From positions 1-33,005 of the forward strand of contig JAYEJS010000083.1 in assembly GCA_034660695.1 (NCBI GenBank): DNA of 33,005 nt, in the 5' to 3' direction. Positions 1,609 through 32,773 of the stretch are shown here, piece by piece. Position numbers and translations under genes: made by a program. Positions within the stretch are counted from its first letter, which is position 1. Each line of letters starts with the position of its first letter. The stretch comes from Candidatus Thermoplasmatota archaeon (GTDB taxonomy: Archaea; Thermoplasmatota; E2; UBA202; DSCA01). Under the pieces are notes generated by a model, which was not told the DNA's origin, did not search any database, and saw only the letters and a list, made by a program, of their open reading frames with translations.

Positions 1609-1627
1609 GGATACTATGCCATCTGCA

Positions 1628-3130
1628 ATGAAATTTGACTTGAAATGCAGATTCATGCTCAGTAAGGAAGTAGGTAGAATAGATGAATTTTTAAAAAATT
1701 TTGTAGAAGGGGCAAATGAAGGCATTTTGAGAAGAGGGGCAATAGACGAAGGAGCAAGAATTGTTGAGTGGAATGCGGAAGGCGATTCCATAACTATGGG
1801 GATACTATCTGAGGGAAACATAAGGAGTCATGAGGGGGCCATTAGAATAAGGAAGGCTTTAAGCAATGCTCTGGGAAAAGAATACAGGGTAGGAGTTAGG
1901 GAAATCGTTCTTATTGACTATATAATAAATCTCGAGGTTGAACAGAAACCGCTCAAAGAATTCAGCATACCTTTTGCCGAATTAAAGATAGACGGAAATA
2001 TGGTCGAGATGAGAATACGGGATAAAGGGGAAGAGTTCTTGAGGGAGAATTATATTGACAGAATGATACACCTCGTAAAAGAAAAAATAAAATCCCAGTA
2101 TTACGAGGGAAAAAAGGAGTACTGGGAGCTTATATGGAAATCGGATGAAAAAAATCCTGTATGGCATGAAGACCCGTCTGAAGAAATGCAAAAGCTTGGA
2201 TGGATTGTACCCGGCTCGACAAAGGGCAAGTGGTTTTACCGCCCGCCCGCTGCCGCCATAATGAGGGCGATGGAAAAAATTGCCCTAGAGGAAGTTGTAT
2301 TACCCTTAGGATTCAATGAAGTCATAGAGCCAATGCATGTCTCACTGGAAATGTGGCTCAAGACGGGTCATCTTGAAGGCATGCCTGGGGAAATGTATTA
2401 TCTCTGCGAGCCGTCCTCAAGGGATCAAAATCAGTGGGAGCGTTTCATCGACCTTGTAAAAATAACTAAGGAAGTGCCTGAGGAAGAGCTGAAAAAAAAT
2501 CTGAAATCGCCAAAGGCCGGGGTATGCTATGCCCAGTGCCCTAACATATACTTTTCATTTTCGGGAAAGACAATATCTGATGACTCACTTCCCATTTTGT
2601 TATTCGAAAGATCAGTCCCTTCCAACAGATACGAATCCGGGGGCAGGCATGGAATAGAAAGGGTTGACGAGTTTCATAGAATCGAGGTTGTATGCATCGG
2701 AACGAGGGCCCAACTTATTTCGTTGCGGGAAAAACTCATGGAAAGATACAGCCATGTATTCAATGACGTCCTGGAGCTTGAGTGGAGAATGGCGAAAGTA
2801 ACACCGTTTTACATGCAGCAGGCGGGAGTGGTGGGGCAGGAGGAGGAGGCAGATAAAGGGACAATAGATTTTGAAGTGTGGCTGCCTTATGGGGGGGACA
2901 GAAGCAAAGAATGGCTTGAAATACAGAATATTTCCATCATCGGAGATAAATACACCAAAGCGTTCAACATCAAGGGGCAGAAAAGCCAGCTATGGTCTGG
3001 ATGTTCTGGAATCGGCTTGGAGAGATTGACGATAGCGTTCCTGTCGCAAAAGGGAATAGACCCCGATAAATGGCCCACAGCATTCAAAAAATATTTGCCA
3101 GAGTTGCCGGGCATGACGGAGTTTTTATGA
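1628..3130 (+). CDS. serS: Seryl-tRNA synthetase, zinc-dependent archaeal (methanogen-type, class 2) form
   Basis: The enzyme charges tRNA-Ser with serine. This is the rare archaeal SerRS with an active-site zinc, not the common coiled-coil form. Landmarks match the Methanosarcina barkeri enzyme throughout: WHxDP..xMxxxGWI..GSTKGKW, CYAQCPN, the motif-2 region GIERVDEFHRIEVV, INGDKY-like IIGDKYTKAFN, and the C-terminal LWSGCSGIGLERL. The three zinc ligands are present as C304, E353 and C459, numbered from 1628. Length (500 residues) is normal. I chose the ATG at 1628 (MKFDLK, as in homologues) over 1616 because of TATA spacing. A cognate tRNA-Ser(CGA) gene is at 28.2 kb. The gene appears monocistronic. 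Confidence 0.95.
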   Translation: MKFDLKCRFMLSKEVGRIDEFLKNFVEGANEGILRRGAIDEGARIVEWNAEGDSITMGILSEGNIRSHEGAIRIRKALSNALGKEYRVGVREIVLIDYIINLEVEQKPLKEFSIPFAELKIDGNMVEMRIRDKGEEFLRENYIDRMIHLVKEKIKSQYYEGKKEYWELIWKSDEKNPVWHEDPSEEMQKLGWIVPGSTKGKWFYRPPAAAIMRAMEKIALEEVVLPLGFNEVIEPMHVSLEMWLKTGHLEGMPGEMYYLCEPSSRDQNQWERFIDLVKITKEVPEEELKKNLKSPKAGVCYAQCPNIYFSFSGKTISDDSLPILLFERSVPSNRYESGGRHGIERVDEFHRIEVVCIGTRAQLISLREKLMERYSHVFNDVLELEWRMAKVTPFYMQQAGVVGQEEEADKGTIDFEVWLPYGGDRSKEWLEIQNISIIGDKYTKAFNIKGQKSQLWSGCSGIGLERLTIAFLSQKGIDPDKWPTAFKKYLPELPGMTEFL

Positions 3131-7183: not shown

Positions 7184-7651
7184 ATGGAAAATATCGCATC
7201 ACTCCTTAAAAAAAGGAATCTTAAGATTGCCACCGCAGAGTCATGTACTGGAGGGCTGATAGGGCATACAATAACAAACGTCCCGGGAAGTTCATATTAT
7301 TATGAAGGGGGAGTAATATCATACAGTAATGCCATAAAGATGAAATTTTTGGGGGTAAATGAAGAAACTTTAAAAAAATACGGTGCTGTTTCCGAGCAGA
7401 CGGCGAAAGAAATGGCCGAGGGGATAAAAAATAGGGCTAGCGTAAACATCGGAATTGCCACAACTGGAATCGCTGGGCCCGGGGGCGGTACAACTGAAAA
7501 GCCCGTGGGGCTTGTATATGTTGCACTGGCGGGAAATGAAGGAACATATGTAAAGAAATTCAATTTTCACGGTAATAGGGGGGAAAATAAAAAATCGACA
7601 TGTGATGCCGCCATCAACATGCTCCTAAATTATCTGGAACAATATGATTGA
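7184..7651 (+). CDS. pncC: Nicotinamide-nucleotide amidohydrolase (CinA C-terminal domain, PncC)
   Basis: This 155-residue protein corresponds to the stand-alone C-terminal domain of CinA. It has the conserved TAESCTGGLIGHTITNVPGS start, SYSNAIKMKFLGV, VSEQTAKEMAEG and TTGIAGPGGGTTEKPVGLVY. The family deamidates NMN to nicotinate mononucleotide, recycling the pyridine nucleotide released for example by NAD-dependent reactions. Length is normal. The 3' end overlaps rtcA by 8 nt, so the two genes form an operon; a link through RNA-ligation-type nucleotide chemistry is possible but unproven. Confidence 0.9.
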   Translation: MENIASLLKKRNLKIATAESCTGGLIGHTITNVPGSSYYYEGGVISYSNAIKMKFLGVNEETLKKYGAVSEQTAKEMAEGIKNRASVNIGIATTGIAGPGGGTTEKPVGLVYVALAGNEGTYVKKFNFHGNRGENKKSTCDAAINMLLNYLEQYD

Positions 7652-8684
7652 AATAGACGGTTCTCATGGAGAAGGCGGCGGGCAAATACTCCGTATGGCC
7701 GTTGCGTTATCTGCATTGACTGGCAGCGATGTGAAGATAAGGAATATAAGGGCGGGCAGACCCAATCCCGGGCTGAGAAGGCAGCACATGATCGCAATTG
7801 AATCGGTGAGAAAAATATGCAACGGTAAAGTGAACGGACTGCACGAAAATTCACTCGAAATAGAATTTTTTTCAGGGGATATGAAAGGTGGCACGTATAG
7901 TTTCGATATCGGGACGGCCGGCAGCATAACCCTCGTATTTCAGGCATGCATACTTCCTTCTCTTTTTGCAGAAAACGAAACCATAATTTCATTGAAAGGA
8001 GGAACGGATGTGAGATGGTCTCCCCCTTGGGATTATTTCAATAATGTATTCCTAAAATTGCTTCGCCGGATGGGTATATCGGCTGATGGAAAACTTTACA
8101 GAAGAGGATACTACCCGAAAGGAGGGGGGATGGCAGAAATAGCCATAAAGCCGTGCAGGGATTTGCATCCAATTAATTTTGGTACCGAGGAAGAATTGAA
8201 AATAGAGGGCATTGTGAATATAGCAAATCTGCCATTAAAAATAGCCGAGCGGATGAGAAATGCCGCAGAGAAAGAATTTAGGGAAAAAGAAATGGAAACG
8301 GATATAACCATAAGTGAGGGAGATTCATCCTCGCCGGGCATCGGTATCGTGCTCTGGACAGCCGATAAAAAAATTCTGGGCTCTGACAGCCTTGGAAAAA
8401 AAGGCAGGCCGGCAGAGCAGGTTGGCAGAGAAGCTGCCAGTACATTGCTAGACAAAATCGAATCCGGGGCGGATATTGATAGATGGGCGGTCGACCAGAT
8501 TTTACCCTATGCAGCCATTTCCGGTAAGCCGTTTTCTTTCAGATGCATGGAGTTGAGCGGGCATGCAGAAACTGAAATGTGGCTTCTTGAGAAATTTCTG
8601 GATGTGAAATTTGGAAAAAAGGTAAGCAATAAACTTATAGAACTCGTCACTATCCCTAAGGAATGTAAACCAGAACAAACATGA
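7644..8684 (+). CDS. rtcA: RNA 3'-terminal phosphate cyclase
   Basis: This 346-residue protein has the RtcA signature at the N-terminus (IDGSHGEGGGQILRMAVALS), RAGRPNPGLRRQH and SFDIGTAGSITLVFQ. The catalytic histidine is in the C-terminal SGHAETEMW; it is the residue that becomes adenylylated. The enzyme converts RNA 3'-phosphate ends to 2',3'-cyclic phosphates, a substrate for RtcB-type ligation and repair. It may also relate to tRNA splicing, which this genome must do often given its tRNA introns (inference). It is cotranscribed with pncC. Its 3' end overlaps the convergent DUF2116 gene by 29 nt. Confidence 0.95.
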   Translation: MIEIDGSHGEGGGQILRMAVALSALTGSDVKIRNIRAGRPNPGLRRQHMIAIESVRKICNGKVNGLHENSLEIEFFSGDMKGGTYSFDIGTAGSITLVFQACILPSLFAENETIISLKGGTDVRWSPPWDYFNNVFLKLLRRMGISADGKLYRRGYYPKGGGMAEIAIKPCRDLHPINFGTEEELKIEGIVNIANLPLKIAERMRNAAEKEFREKEMETDITISEGDSSSPGIGIVLWTADKKILGSDSLGKKGRPAEQVGREAASTLLDKIESGADIDRWAVDQILPYAAISGKPFSFRCMELSGHAETEMWLLEKFLDVKFGKKVSNKLIELVTIPKECKPEQT

Positions 8685-27657: not shown

Positions 27658-27729
27658 CTTGCCTCCGAATGTAATTACTTATTCCGTATTTATAGTTTTT
27701 GTATCTATAAAAAAGTGCTCCCGTCGGGA

Positions 27730-27764
27730 TTTTCGATCAGGCTTGCAGGTTTGCAAGCCATATA
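27730..27764 (-). other. T-loop (59/60) intron of tRNA-Glu, 35 nt
   Basis: Bulge-helix-bulge: T-stem TCGGG/CCCGA; 3-nt bulge AAT on the 3' side; central helix TTCG/CGAA; 3-nt bulge AAT on the 5' side; then an 8-bp intron hairpin GGCTTGCA/TGCAAGCC. Cleavage after the second base of each bulge restores TTCGAA+T, a perfect 7-nt T-loop. Confidence 0.88.
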
Positions 27765-27785
27765 TTCGAACCCGAGTCTTCGGCT

Positions 27786-27854
27786 TTCTTTAGAACCGTC
27801 TTTTGAAAGTGTTTCTTTGGGCTGAAGCACTTTCTTTTTAAAGAAAGGGCTCTT
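27786..27854 (-). other. Canonical 37/38 intron of tRNA-Glu, 69 nt
   Basis: Bulge CGA (C36, G37 and first intron base) and bulge AAA (last two intron bases and A38) flank a central helix CTCT/AAAG containing one C-A mismatch. The inner helix is AGAGCC/GGTTCT. The interior also holds a CTTTCTT/AAGAAAG hairpin. This is a slightly relaxed bulge-helix-bulge. Confidence 0.85.
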
Positions 27855-27933
27855 CGAGAGGCCGAGATGATTAGCCGGGCTACACTACGGGAGCATTACC
27901 CAGGTAATACATTTCTATTTTTATCTTTTTGGA

Positions 27934-28134
27934 CTACCCCCTGGAAGCAACCTGCAGTATCTTCACTTTATCGCCGTCATTGAGTTTTATTGTATATGGG
28001 ATTGGCTTATCGTTGACAATCAAAATGACGTCATCGGGAACAAAATTTAAGAGCGATATCAAATCTTTTCCTGTTGCCCCCTCGTCCATCTGTAATTTCT
28101 TTTTTTCTTTCGATATTAAAACTTCTATTTCCAT
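27934..28134 (-). CDS. ThiS/MoaD-like ubiquitin-fold protein (SAMP-like) ending in Arg-Gly
   Basis: This 66-residue beta-grasp protein is built as MEIEVLISKEKKKLQM, GATGKDLISLLNF, DDVILIVNDKPIPY and LNDGDKVKILQVASRG. The fold and the NDGDKVKIL turn match MoaD/ThiS/SAMP sulfur carriers and protein modifiers. Those normally end in Gly-Gly, which is adenylated and thiocarboxylated; this one ends Ser-Arg-Gly. It may therefore be a divergent carrier that keeps only the terminal glycine, or an inactive one. If active it could supply sulfur for tRNA thiolation, fitting its position between two tRNA genes, but that is speculation. It diverges from tRNA-Ser 40 nt away. Confidence 0.8.
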   Translation of the reverse strand: MEIEVLISKEKKKLQMDEGATGKDLISLLNFVPDDVILIVNDKPIPYTIKLNDGDKVKILQVASRG

Positions 28135-28174
28135 CGATATACTAAAAAACAGTCAGCGTATTAACTTTATGTTT

Positions 28175-28308
28175 GCTGGGATGGCCGAGTCAGGACTAAG
28201 GCGGTAGCCTCGAGAGCTACTGGGCTTTTTGTCCGCGCAGGTTCAAACTGCAGCCTGTAAGGCAGATTGCGTTTCCGAGCAGGTTGCTTGAAAATCCTGC
28301 TCCCAGCG
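28175..28308 (+). tRNA. tRNA-Ser (anticodon CGA), T-loop intron
   Basis: The acceptor is GCTGGGA/TCCCAGC with discriminator G at 28308. The anticodon arm GTAGC-CTCGAGA-GCTAC gives anticodon CGA. A long variable arm (TGGGC-TTTTT-GTCC region) identifies a serine tRNA. The T-stem is GCAGG/CCTGC. One intron of 47 nt lies in the T-loop; none is at 37/38. Mature length is 87 nt. CCA is not encoded. The 3' end is followed by GTCTTTTTAG, with a 7-bp GTCTTTT/AAAAGAC hairpin at 28307-28328 that may end transcription. Confidence 0.94.
28248..28294 (+). other. T-loop (59/60) intron of tRNA-Ser, 47 nt
   Basis: Bulge-helix-bulge: T-stem GCAGG/CCTGC; bulge AAT; central helix TTCA/TGAA; bulge AAC; inner helix GCAGCC/GGTTGC (one G-T pair). 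Removal restores TTCAAA+T. Confidence 0.9.
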
Positions 28309-28367
28309 TCTTTTTAGTATCAAAAGACTTTAGTGGTATTGATAGCTTGCAGTCGGGTAAATGAAAC

Positions 28368-28378
28368 AATTTTATATC
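28368..28378 (+). promoter_or_regulatory. TATA box for thrS
   Basis: AATTTTATATC is centred about 26 nt before the ATG at 28398, giving a leaderless transcript. Confidence 0.5.
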
Positions 28379-28397
28379 TCCCCATGCTTTACTTTTA

Positions 28398-30212
28398 ATG
28401 AAAATTCTCTTACTTCATACGGATTATATTGAATACGAGGCAAAAGAAAAGGCGGTAAAGGAAGCAGACGAAATAGAGATTAGGAAGGATAGGCTCGATG
28501 AAGCCCTTGCGGTTTTTGTCGCTGTTGAGAAAGATGATGAGGATGCAATAAATGAAACCGTAAAAAATGCGGCAGAAGAGGTGAAGCAAGTAGCAGAGAA
28601 TGTCAAAGTGGATAAAATAATGCTTTATCCCTACGCTCATCTATCCTCCAATCTTTCAAGTCCCAAATCTGCAAAAGAAGCCCTCAGGAAATTAAAGGAA
28701 GAGTTAAGCAAAAGGTTTGCCGTAAAAAACACACCTTTTGGATGGTACAAGGCATTCAAAATCAGTTGCAAGGGTCATCCGATGGCGGAACTCTCCAGGG
28801 AGATTAAAGGTATCGAAAGGCATGAAGAAGAGAAAAAAATTACATCATCCTGGTTTATATTCACATCGGAAGGGGAACTCATAGAGGCCGAGAAATTTGA
28901 TTTTAGCAATCACAAAGAACTCGAAAAATTTTATGAGTATGAGGCGTACGGCAACAGAAAATCTGAACGTGAGCCAGCCCATATAAAATTAATGAAAGAG
29001 CTAAATCTTGTTGATTACGAGCCCGGCTCCGACCCCGGGAATATGAGATGGTATCCGAAAGGAAAGCTGGTAAAAAAATTATTGGAAAGAAAAGTTGAGG
29101 AAATGTGTTTATCGGCTGGAGCAATGGAAGTCGAAACCCCGCTGATGTACGATGCCCAGCATCCAGCATTGAGCAAATACCTGAAAAAATTTCCCGCAAG
29201 GCAGTATAGGATAAAAGGGAACAAGGACAGAGAGCTTTTTATGAGATTTGCGGCATGCTTCGGGCAGTACCTGATGGCAAGCGACATGGTGATATCCTAC
29301 AAAAACTTGCCTCTACGCATTTTTGAACTGGCAAAGTCTTTCAGGAAGGAACAGCATGGTGAGCTATCGGGAATAAAAAGATTGCGTTCTTTTACGATGC
29401 CGGACATGCATACTCTGTGCGCAGATAAAGAGCAGGCTTTGGAAGAGTTCAAAAAACAATTTTTGCTGTCGATGGAATGGACAAGACTCATAGGTCTGGA
29501 GGGAGAGGTGGCACTCAGATTTGTCAGGCCTTTTTTTGAAGAAAACAGAGAGTTTGCCATGGAAATAGCAAAAGAGGTTGGAAAGCCCATCTTAATGGAA
29601 ATATGGGATAAAAGATATTTCTACTTCATAACAAAATTTGAATTCAACATGAATGACTCCGTTGGAAAATCCTTTGCGTTGTCAACCGTGCAGATAGATG
29701 TGGAAAATCCGGAGTCGTTTGACATTACATATACCGACGAAAACGGGGAAAGGAAGTATCCTCTTCTTCTCCATGCCTCGATATCCGGCGGGATAGATAG
29801 ATGCATCTGTGCCCTTCTCGAGAAAGAAGCAAAAAAAATTGAGAAAGGTGGCAAGGGAATGCTGCCATTCTGGTTGTCTCCGACACAGGTTCGCCTTATT
29901 CCGGTGGGCATCGAATTTTTGGATAATTGTATTGCATTGGCAGAAAAAATAAATGGCAGAGTTGATATTGATGACAGGGATGCAAGTGTTTCCAAGAAGA
30001 TAAGGGAAGCGGAAAAAGAGTGGGTACCGATAATAATTGTTTACGGGGAAAAGGAAAGGAATGGTATATACAGGCCTCGATGCCGTTTCTCATGCGAGAA
30101 AGAATTGTCATTAAAAAATCTAAATAGCATGATATCCGAAAAAATGGAAAAATATCCGTTACAGCCACTTTCCCTTCCAGCATTGTTTAGCAAAAGGCCG
30201 AGCTTTAGATAA
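28398..30212 (+). CDS. thrS: Threonyl-tRNA synthetase, archaeal type
   Basis: This 604-residue enzyme charges tRNA-Thr. The N-terminal 135 residues are the archaeal editing domain of D-aminoacyl-tRNA-deacylase fold (MKILLLHTDYIEYEAKEKA; VDKIMLYPYAHLSSNLSSP). The class II core has PLMYDAQHPALSKYLKKFPARQY, the motif-2 region RIFELAKSFRKEQHGELSG and motif 3 HASISGGIDRCICALLE. The C-terminal anticodon-binding domain begins PFWLSPTQVRLIPVG. Length fits archaeal ThrRS. It is convergent with the DUF3068-like gene, 7 nt apart. Confidence 0.96.
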   Translation: MKILLLHTDYIEYEAKEKAVKEADEIEIRKDRLDEALAVFVAVEKDDEDAINETVKNAAEEVKQVAENVKVDKIMLYPYAHLSSNLSSPKSAKEALRKLKEELSKRFAVKNTPFGWYKAFKISCKGHPMAELSREIKGIERHEEEKKITSSWFIFTSEGELIEAEKFDFSNHKELEKFYEYEAYGNRKSEREPAHIKLMKELNLVDYEPGSDPGNMRWYPKGKLVKKLLERKVEEMCLSAGAMEVETPLMYDAQHPALSKYLKKFPARQYRIKGNKDRELFMRFAACFGQYLMASDMVISYKNLPLRIFELAKSFRKEQHGELSGIKRLRSFTMPDMHTLCADKEQALEEFKKQFLLSMEWTRLIGLEGEVALRFVRPFFEENREFAMEIAKEVGKPILMEIWDKRYFYFITKFEFNMNDSVGKSFALSTVQIDVENPESFDITYTDENGERKYPLLLHASISGGIDRCICALLEKEAKKIEKGGKGMLPFWLSPTQVRLIPVGIEFLDNCIALAEKINGRVDIDDRDASVSKKIREAEKEWVPIIIVYGEKERNGIYRPRCRFSCEKELSLKNLNSMISEKMEKYPLQPLSLPALFSKRPSFR

Positions 30213-30219
30213 TCTGCAA

Positions 30220-32481
30220 TCATCTGGGCTTATTCACAAACCATAACAATATGAGGGATATGCCAAATATTACAAGCAAAATAGGTATTATCGCCTCCAT
30301 GAGCGTGAGCAGGAAGCCGGATGTTTTCGCTTTACCCGCCATTTCCTCTACTGATTGCTCTGTCATCCAGTAATGTAAATCCCCTACCTTTACCTTGTTT
30401 CCGGACAGCTGTTCAACCTGTTTTTTCTGTTGTTCCGCAGCTTTTACGTTATCCAGCAGGTTTGCAGAGGATATATCTACCTGTGTGGCAGGAACTGTTT
30501 TTCCGGAAAGCTGTATCAGTTCAGAAGATTGTTTTCCTTCCTTTACAAGTTCCTTGACCATATCATCAGTAAATGAAAGGGTCAGTGTATATGCCTTTAC
30601 CCATATAGGGCTGCTTATCCCGAATAAATAGTTGAGAATATCTACTTTCTTCTCGGATTGCTTCTCCATATCAATTATCAAACCACTATTGGGCTCGACC
30701 CAGTACTTTGTCGTGGTGGTATATATGACGTTCTGGTTTATGCCCGGCGTCGGGTCAAACACTTTTCTCATCTCTTGCGTTTCATAGAGATATGTATGAA
30801 TGCCTTCATGGTCTTCTTCCCTCATGAAGTCGACCGGCGATGGTGCTCCTATCTCGGAATTCCACATGGAATAATCTCTTTTGTCTACACCTGGGGGAAA
30901 TGTATACAGACCTTCTCTCCTCGTATCTCCATAATTTTGTGCCTCCCCACCGGTATCTGCATATACGCCATGAATTGAAAGGCTGCAGCCTTCCGGTACT
31001 TTTTCACCGGTGCTTGAATCATATGTGGTCGTATTATCCTCCAGTAGGATGACCTTTTTTCCTTCTTCATCGTAGCAGGTGTCCGTGACCTTGACATTTC
31101 TGACCATATCTATATCTTTACTTCCCTGGGAAATAATCCATAATTTTCCCTCCATCTCCACTTTTGCATTTGTGTTTTCGGGAATTGTGTGGAGGTCTGG
31201 GAACTGGGCATTGACCGTTCCTTCCTTCCTTGCATTGACAATAGAACCTGTGGAAGGTTCCACCCAGTATGTCGTGTTGCCCGTGTAGAGGAGGTTTACA
31301 TGGCGGTCACTCATCCCGTCTATATCCTGTATGCCAATTGGACAGTTGTCGGTTCTTATGACATACCTGTAGGTATCCAGCCCCGCTATGTTCTCCTCGC
31401 CTTCAAAGTACGCTGTTGATGCGTTTTTGGTATCAGAATCCCATAGTACATAATCTCTTTTTTCAACACCGATGGGGAAAGTGAGAAGTCCCCGTTTGTC
31501 ACTGAACATACGGTCGTATTCCATCGTGTACGGGTTGACACCATCGATACCTTTTCTCTGCAATTCATCTGGAAGCATACGCCCTGTTTCATTCTTGGCA
31601 ATCACTTCGTTCCCTACCAGGTACATACTGTCCGTCGATGCATCTTCCACCCATATGTGATTTGTTATAACTGCATTGTATCTGTCATACCAATCGTTTT
31701 CTCCGACCTTTGACATGTTGAAAATCGATATATTGCCTGTCAGTTCTGCAGTGATATTCAGATCCGACGGAAGTTTGTGAAGATCCGGAAACTCGAGATA
31801 TTGAATAACGCGCTTGTCATAGTCAATTATCGTACCCGTTTTTATATCTGCCCAGACGGTTTGATCACCGCTGTAGTAAAGTTTAGCTTCAGGGGGTGTT
31901 CCTTCCGGTCCTGGGCCAATATATATTTCATCCTGGTGACCGGCGTATCCATATGTCTTTACACCCGCTATCTTTTTCTCACCGATATAATAAGCTATGC
32001 CAGTTGCATCATCGGTATCAACATATCCCTGCTTGTATATGTCATCCATGTCTGTATTCCAAACAAGATATTCCTCTCCCTTCTTCACTCCAAGCGGGAA
32101 TATCCACTGGCCAATTCTCTCTGTATCCCCATAGCCCGGAACATTCCTCGAGGTATATGGGTCTATACCATATACCTTAGTCATCTTCAGGTCAGGTATA
32201 TCTTTCCCTGTACTTTTATCTTTGACGGATATATCCTCCCTTACCAAAAGTATGTTTCCTTCCTTTTTCATGGCGTTTATTTCCCTCTTTATTTCTATGT
32301 TCTTGTAGTCCATTTTCAGGGTTGTACTGTTAAACATTCCAAATTTTCCCTCGTAGTACACTGTCTCGTGCAAGTTATCTGGGATTTTTTTCATGGAGGG
32401 TGTTAAAACAAACGAAAGTGATGGGGCAACTATGAAAAATACAAGTCCCAAAACGACCATTATATTCCTTTTTCCTCTCAT
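30220..32481 (-). CDS. DUF3068-like membrane protein with three tandem ectodomain repeats
   Basis: The N-terminus has one membrane helix (IMVVLGLVFFIVAPSLSFVL), the C-terminus another (LMEAIIPILLVIFGISLILL), and about 680 extracytoplasmic residues lie between. Three repeats of about 200 residues each carry YGDTERIGQWIFPLGV / SDKRGLLTFPIGVEKRDY / YGDTRREGLYTFPPGV followed by W(N/D)S/TD. Each then has YYSGDQTVWADIKTGTIID / LYTGNTTYWVEPSTGSIV / TTTKYWVEPNSGLIID. This resembles the DUF3068 (PorA-like) family, which usually has one or two copies. I chose ATG 32481 because AGGTG lies 6-7 nt upstream; a GTG three codons earlier is the alternative. Function is unknown, probably a cell-envelope protein. 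Confidence 0.72.
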   Translation of the reverse strand: MRGKRNIMVVLGLVFFIVAPSLSFVLTPSMKKIPDNLHETVYYEGKFGMFNSTTLKMDYKNIEIKREINAMKKEGNILLVREDISVKDKSTGKDIPDLKMTKVYGIDPYTSRNVPGYGDTERIGQWIFPLGVKKGEEYLVWNTDMDDIYKQGYVDTDDATGIAYYIGEKKIAGVKTYGYAGHQDEIYIGPGPEGTPPEAKLYYSGDQTVWADIKTGTIIDYDKRVIQYLEFPDLHKLPSDLNITAELTGNISIFNMSKVGENDWYDRYNAVITNHIWVEDASTDSMYLVGNEVIAKNETGRMLPDELQRKGIDGVNPYTMEYDRMFSDKRGLLTFPIGVEKRDYVLWDSDTKNASTAYFEGEENIAGLDTYRYVIRTDNCPIGIQDIDGMSDRHVNLLYTGNTTYWVEPSTGSIVNARKEGTVNAQFPDLHTIPENTNAKVEMEGKLWIISQGSKDIDMVRNVKVTDTCYDEEGKKVILLEDNTTTYDSSTGEKVPEGCSLSIHGVYADTGGEAQNYGDTRREGLYTFPPGVDKRDYSMWNSEIGAPSPVDFMREEDHEGIHTYLYETQEMRKVFDPTPGINQNVIYTTTTKYWVEPNSGLIIDMEKQSEKKVDILNYLFGISSPIWVKAYTLTLSFTDDMVKELVKEGKQSSELIQLSGKTVPATQVDISSANLLDNVKAAEQQKKQVEQLSGNKVKVGDLHYWMTEQSVEEMAGKAKTSGFLLTLMEAIIPILLVIFGISLILLWFVNKPR

Positions 32482-32577
32482 CCATTTCACCTAATAACTA
32501 GCAAATATCCAATTTTTGTATAAGTAAGTTTCGGGTTTTGCAATTCTAATCCAAAAAGACAGACGCCCCGGCCGAGA

Positions 32578-32608
32578 TTTTCACGTATGCCGAAGCAATC
32601 GGCATGGC
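32578..32608 (-). other. T-loop (59/60) intron of tRNA-Asp, 31 nt
   Basis: Bulge-helix-bulge: T-stem CCGAG/CTCGG; bulge AAT; central helix TTCA/TGAA; bulge AAG; then a 7-bp intron hairpin ATGCCGA/TCGGCAT. Removal restores TTCAAA+T. Confidence 0.9.
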
Positions 32609-32629
32609 TTTGAACTCGGGTCGCGAGCT

Positions 32630-32676
32630 TTCTATAAACCTCTTTAGGGATGAAACACCTTTTCTAAAGGGATTCT
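32630..32676 (-). other. Canonical 37/38 intron of tRNA-Asp, 47 nt
   Basis: Bulges CGA and AAA flank a central helix CTGT/ATAG (one G-T pair). The inner helix begins GAATC/GGTTT with wobble pairs. The interior has CCCTTTAG/CTAAAG-type pairing. Confidence 0.85.
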
Positions 32677-32773
32677 CGACAGGCTCGCATGATAACCGCT
32701 ACACTACCGGGGCTCAGAATAGGTATAACATTTTTCTTAATAATATTTTCCTTTTGATGTTTTACTAAAAAGT

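Follow-up and report, generated by a model that had tools for sequence, protein, structure and literature searches.

Non-canonical tRNA introns of the Thermoproteales have undergone large-scale transposition (Sugahara 2008; Fujishima 2010, as relayed in the reviews PMC4033280 and PMC4090602). According to the same reviews, tRNA-splicing endonucleases of the α4 and α2 types are restricted to canonical bulge-helix-bulge (BHB) motifs, and euryarchaea with either enzyme have few tRNA introns, all at the canonical position (PMC4090602). Introns occur in 92–95% of the tRNA genes of the Asgard lineages Atabeyarchaeia and Freyarchaeia (PMC11291895). Here, we analyse a 33,005-nt contig of a Candidatus Thermoplasmatota archaeon (GCA_034660695.1, contig JAYEJS010000083.1; C83 of genome G000), called the window throughout. 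The genome is a metagenome-assembled genome (MAG) of 1.63 Mb in 164 contigs with an estimated completeness of 99.6%. Three tRNA genes in the window, for glutamate, serine and aspartate, each carry an insert in the T-loop between positions 59 and 60. These inserts are very probably small, protein-spliced BHB introns that have spread among isoacceptors at this one site within one order of the Thermoplasmata.

T-loop inserts in three tRNA genes

Gene coordinates and intron bounds were read directly from the window sequence. The gene for pre-tRNA-Glu(CTC) (27716–27894, minus strand) holds two introns, one of 35 nt at 59/60 (27730–27764) and a canonical one of 69 nt at 37/38 (27786–27854; ARAGORN i(41,69)). 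Pre-tRNA-Ser(CGA) (28175–28308, plus strand) is interrupted once, by a 47-nt insert at 59/60 (28248–28294). Pre-tRNA-Asp(GTC) (32564–32713, minus strand), the sole tRNA-Asp found in the genome, again has two introns, of 31 nt at 59/60 (32578–32608) and 47 nt at 37/38 (32630–32676). An earlier note on this DNA had placed inserts of these lengths at T-loop position 59/60, with GAAAA before T60 in all three and with exon–intron pairing that is TTCG/CGAA in Glu but TTCA/TGAA in the other two. Direct reading confirmed each of these points, the intron 3′ ends being CGAAAA in Glu and TGAAAA in Ser and Asp; the note's gene list had omitted the two ordinary anticodon-loop introns.

In the unedited window, ARAGORN found no tRNA and Rfam gave no match even at E ≤ 1. 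Once the T-loop inserts were deleted in silico, ARAGORN called a tRNA at all three loci, as expected if exact removal restores the tRNA: Glu(ctc) with an intron, Ser(cga) and, at the Asp locus, Ser(aga). The last is a miscall that arises because the anticodon-loop intron confuses ARAGORN, and the GTC anticodon is a hand reading. The same removal procedure applied to 10 shuffled windows gave no tRNA match.

The insert junction can slide (57/58, 58/59 or 59/60) with the product unchanged, because exon and intron both end in AA. The 59/60 register is the one that gives a 4-bp helix between two 3-nt bulges. In the minimum free energy (MFE) structure, the BHB is present for Glu (z −5.8) and the central helix for Ser (z −3.8). 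Unlike these two, the Asp T-arm lacks the central helix in its MFE structure. The inner helix is also mismatched beside the bulge, which makes the intron side of the BHB somewhat relaxed.

Evidence for structured introns also comes from 85 distinct introns, 14–50 nt long, collected from ∼40 genomes. Exon A57 pairs with a T at intron base −6 in 41 of 42 cases, and G57 with a C in 29 of 43, with five further G–T pairs. This covariation between R57 and base −6 has a Fisher p of 5e-16 when only the C and T cells are counted and kinship is ignored. The compensatory change between Glu and Ser/Asp in the window thus generalises strongly. The intron 3′ end is GAAAA in 78 of the 85, and the central helix appears in the MFE structure of 54 of 85 real introns versus 12 of 850 (1.4%) shuffled ones. 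A group I self-splicing origin finds no footing here, as the inserts are 14–50 nt long where a group I core usually exceeds 200 nt, and Rfam gave no match in the window.

Several observations weigh against BHB introns. At position 57, nine introns, mostly in tRNA-Lys(TTT), show a G·A mismatch; mismatches beside the bulge also occur in several inner helices, so that 'canonical' describes the BHB only approximately. The 85 sequences are related and not independent. Moreover, the purpose-built covariance model used in our searches (R1) was trained on chimeric T-arms that already held the 57:−6 pair; it is biased towards the motif and rewards that pair, which inflates the covariation count. The less biased subset, from the window genome, is smaller, with 9 of 11 introns paired and two mismatched. 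Finally, EndA, the splicing endonuclease, was not found in the window genome's own assembly.

Two lines of evidence are independent of R1. One is a hairpin pattern search that ignores the exons, described below. The other is a comparison of tRNA-Arg(CCT) genes with and without the intron. The exons are identical in G012, which has no intron, and in G009, G015 and G020, which have one of ∼46 nt, all within one genus; they are closely similar between G006, without an intron, and G010, with one of 45 nt.

These comparisons also bear on the idea that the inserts are never removed and the tRNAs work with an extended T-loop. The inserts are seen here in DNA, and some organellar tRNAs tolerate minor alterations of the T-loop. 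However, an insert of 14–50 nt would be expected to disrupt the contact between T-loop and D-loop, and in congeners the same tRNA lacks it. The inserts also differ freely in length and sequence, yet the 4-bp BHB helix and the GAAAA end are kept. An unspliced T-loop is thus very improbable, and the BHB introns are very probably spliced in the cell. Before splicing, TTCR of the exon T-loop would pair with the intron 3′ YGAA between the T-stem and the intron hairpin. The tRNA-splicing endonuclease would then cleave behind A59 and in front of T60, and the ends would be joined by a ligase to give the T-loop TTCRAAT. RtcB is the known archaeal tRNA ligase.

Occurrence in the genome and across the order

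A census of the window genome with RF00005 and R1, in which genes were counted by hand, found 44 tRNA genes, 11 of them with a T-loop 59/60 intron: Glu-CTC, Ser-CGA, Asp-GTC, Ser-GGA, Ala-TGC, Ala-CGC, Gly-TCC, Gly-CCC, Arg-TCT, His-GTG and Lys-TTT. After intron removal, ARAGORN reported a tRNA at all 11 loci, with an anticodon equal to the hand reading except for Asp. All introns found outside 37/38 lie at 59/60. The earlier note had spoken of a 'genome-wide invasion of one site' on the strength of three carriers among three genes. Repeated invasion of the site is seen across the order, but the window chanced to hold three carriers, and the fraction in this genome is only about one quarter. 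Two other expectations of that note fared better: further tRNAs of the genome do bear the 59/60 intron, and no intron-less copy was found for any of the 11 isoacceptors.

This census speaks to a second alternative, in which unrelated inserts interrupt tRNA pseudogenes or tRNA genes that were misassembled. Standard gene finders overlook these genes, and the genome is a MAG in 164 contigs. Nevertheless, the sole Asp and His tRNAs found bear the insert: both Asp-GTC and His-GTG are single-copy and essential, and neither RF00005 nor R1 found an intact copy in the genome. The exons are intact, some being identical to intron-less orthologues, and the same junction with paired ends recurs in all 85 distinct introns from ∼40 genomes. 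We consider this alternative extremely improbable.

Some individual loci deserve mention. Ala-TGC (L042), directly downstream of an apparent 16S rRNA 3′ end, is interrupted in its T-loop by a 21-nt intron whose motif is weaker and whose end is AGAATA. On contig C60 of G000 near 9.6 kb (L231), a lone T-arm and acceptor 3′ strand stand with no recognisable 5′ half, either a fragment or a remnant. A second intron family occupies 37/38, with a core CCCTTT...AAGGTGTTTCATCCC shared by the Asp, iMet and Glu-TTC introns and present in looser form in Glu-CTC.

The earlier note had called the genome euryarchaeal-looking, which is right in the old sense of the term. The threonyl-tRNA synthetase (ThrRS) closest to its own belongs to Thermoplasmata archaeon M8_bin1702 (83% identity), followed by those of further Thermoplasmata MAGs. 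Among 22 genomes of the order, all Thermoplasmata MAGs, R1 found T-loop introns in 21; in the remaining one, G005, it overlooked a tRNA-Arg(CCT) insert of 13 nt at this T-loop position. Every order genome examined therefore has a T-loop intron, at one site and in more than 12 isoacceptors overall. At dozens of these relatives' loci, ARAGORN reports a tRNA after intron removal. Two loci that it first called Leu (L201 and L205) were reassigned to Thr-CGT, as anticodon introns confuse the caller.

In the other orders of the class, R1 gave two marginal matches, neither of which the tRNA scan confirmed. Across 390 genomes of the phylum, matches outside the order were mostly single per genome. Those inspected were mostly tRNA-Lys(TTT) genes from several Thermoplasmatota families (L234–L248) that have a D-loop insert in addition to the 59/60 intron. 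Matches in Thermococcus and Methanolobus were rejected because they are not tRNAs. T-loop introns belonging to another sequence family interrupt at least three tRNAs of a MAG labelled Nanohaloarchaea (GLR72), a label that may be wrong.

Probable spread between tRNA genes and a candidate viral vehicle

Intron bodies are shared across isoacceptors. For example, an intron family of the form TGCAACTTG...AAGTTGC...YGAAAA occurs in Arg, Cys, Glu, Lys, Met, Gly, Ser, Ala, Gln, His and Val tRNAs of different species, a few of these isotypes being ARAGORN calls unchecked by hand. Every occurrence of the hairpin GCAACTTG-N-AAGTTGC in the 22 genomes is a T-loop intron, one of them in a duplicated tRNA 3′ half. 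A genome-wide dispersed repeat as the source of the introns was rejected, as the pattern matched T-loop introns only. An identical 45-nt intron is present in Gly-TCC and Arg-CCT of G010, the Gly-TCC and Gly-CCC introns of the window genome are identical, and the Ala-CGC and Thr-CGT introns of G009 and G015 are related (identical or nearly so). Introns that share a body mostly fit the R57 of their own host tRNA. Conversion of the whole T-arm, which had looked likely for Arg-CCT of G010, was also set aside there: G006, which has no intron, shares this T-stem, and the stem need not have arrived with the intron.

Could the introns be real and yet reflect only old vertical descent with loss, without repeated gain at 59/60? 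At least one must be old, since the Lys-TTT 59/60 intron is found in several families across the phylum. However, intron bodies within one genome, such as the identical pairs of G010 and the window genome, are too alike across isoacceptors for vertical descent, and presence is patchy inside a single genus. Loss alone is unlikely to account for this pattern. Repeated gain fits it better, and the comparison shows what appears to be one universal tRNA site colonised repeatedly by small introns.

From these patterns we infer both a reason for the site preference and a route of spread. The near-invariant TTCRAA would supply the same BHB exon half in nearly all tRNAs, so that an intron ending in YGAAAA would fit anywhere. 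Position 59/60 would then be favoured because one intron suits any tRNA, even under a strict α′2 enzyme. Spread would proceed by DNA-level transfer between tRNA genes, possibly aided by integrating viruses with the intron in their att site.

A viral role has precedents in part. SSV-type suicidal integrase genes are split at att upon integration (PMC8371274), and Sugahara 2012 proposed a model in which an intron-containing attP is a vector for intron acquisition (PMC3293823; taken up again in PMC8371274). In G004, contig C4 carries a tailed provirus at 16.8–38.9 kb, with terminase, portal, MuF-like, capsid and tape measure genes. It is flanked by an intact intron-bearing tRNA-Arg(CCT) on one side and a copy of that gene's 3′ half on the other. 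The att repeat is 75 bp long and includes the entire 30-nt T-loop intron. The integrase (PF00589) is split in frame through this repeat, in the fashion of SSV-type suicidal integrases.

Elements do recombine at these genes, as the G004 att repeat with its intron-bearing tRNA-Arg 3′ half attests, and the inserts might accordingly be att remnants left by integration. Yet in G004 the insert lies inside the repeat at both ends and so predates integration or travels with it. An integrase-like open reading frame (ORF) runs through few of the intron genes examined, and scars would not be expected to covary with R57. That the introns are scars is almost certainly wrong.

A different proposal keeps them as introns and makes viruses their carriers: an intron-bearing attP within an SSV-type integrase gene would replace a host tRNA gene's 3′ half on integration, ferrying T-loop introns between tRNA genes and between species. 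We regard this as possible, though rather doubtful. If it were true, the G004 provirus would be a direct case of an intron installed by integration, and the reason why 59/60 alone was colonised under a strict endonuclease would lie in the invariant T-loop. The G004 virus may have donated the intron or taken it from its host. G012 and G014 have related suicidal integrases that use a tRNA-Leu att free of introns, and a search of IMG/VR found no related proviruses and no intron-bearing att sites.

In G001, a minus-strand ORF on contig C71 (749–1183; L356) opens with a stretch resembling the N-terminal integrase fragment of G004. It reads antisense across the tRNA-Ala(CGC) gene, including the T-loop intron of 50 nt. 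To judge from this resemblance, it may be a second, partial split-integrase case; the C-terminal part of the candidate was not found.

Splicing endonuclease and comparison with known systems

EndA of the α′2 type is encoded in 16 of the 22 order members. It is a single chain with two PF01974 repeats, and its full-length matches include the α′2 structures of A. fulgidus (1r0v and 2gjw). The Y/H/K triad, whose residue roles we take to be those of A. fulgidus EndA, is present only in the C-terminal repeat in the four order members aligned. The relatives show no (αβ)2-type heterotetramer pattern and so do not match the Thermoproteales type. The absence of EndA from the window genome is likely an assembly gap rather than a loss, because purQ, its usual neighbour, was not found there either; five other assemblies likewise lack both. 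Elsewhere in the window lie a class II tRNA synthetase with a tRNA_bind_4 domain (1616–3130), probably the rare methanogen-type seryl-tRNA synthetase, and an RNA 3′-phosphate cyclase (7644–8684), in the same window as the intron-bearing tRNAs.

An order with an α′2 enzyme and many 59/60 introns breaks the correlation between endonuclease type and intron number (PMC4090602). It suggests the rule that a strict enzyme permits mass intron gain where the exon half of the site is the same in every tRNA. Presence/absence pairs within a genus make intron gain and loss datable, and an intron-bearing provirus makes the attP-vector model testable. In a more practical vein, ARAGORN and the Rfam tRNA model overlook most such genes, and genomes may consequently seem to be without Asp, His or Glu tRNAs.

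The earlier note held that dense non-canonical introns are established mainly for Thermoproteales and some other Crenarchaeota, a view now outdated by the Asgard archaea (PMC11291895) and Thaumarchaeota (PMC8450103). As in the Thermoproteales of the cited reviews, the introns here are short BHB introns away from the anticodon, similar across isoacceptors and several per gene, and 59/60 is a listed archaeal site. Those accounts describe many sites and a broad (αβ)2 enzyme; in contrast, the only sites found in the window genome are 37/38 and 59/60, the motif is nearly strict and the relatives encode an α′2 enzyme. Atabeyarchaeia and Freyarchaeia share the many non-canonical tRNA introns outside Crenarchaeota, but theirs lie at multiple positions, and the accessible part of that report does not describe a single-site pattern (PMC11291895). 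The permuted tRNAs of Thermofilum pendens and Cyanidioschyzon merolae have the same 59/60 T-loop junction and are BHB-processed; there the gene halves are swapped, whereas here the gene order is normal (PMC3218864). The G004 provirus resembles the attP model (PMC3293823) in having intron-bearing att copies within an SSV-type integrase gene. It differs from the case behind that model, a plasmid-like element in Caldiarchaeum with another intron position, in being a tailed provirus with a T-loop intron. Introns at 59/60, tRNA-intron transposition and the attP idea are thus already known. As far as the searched literature shows, subscription papers excluded, two things are new: the invasion of a single T-loop site throughout an order of Thermoplasmata that has an α′2 endonuclease, and the presence of the intron within an att site.

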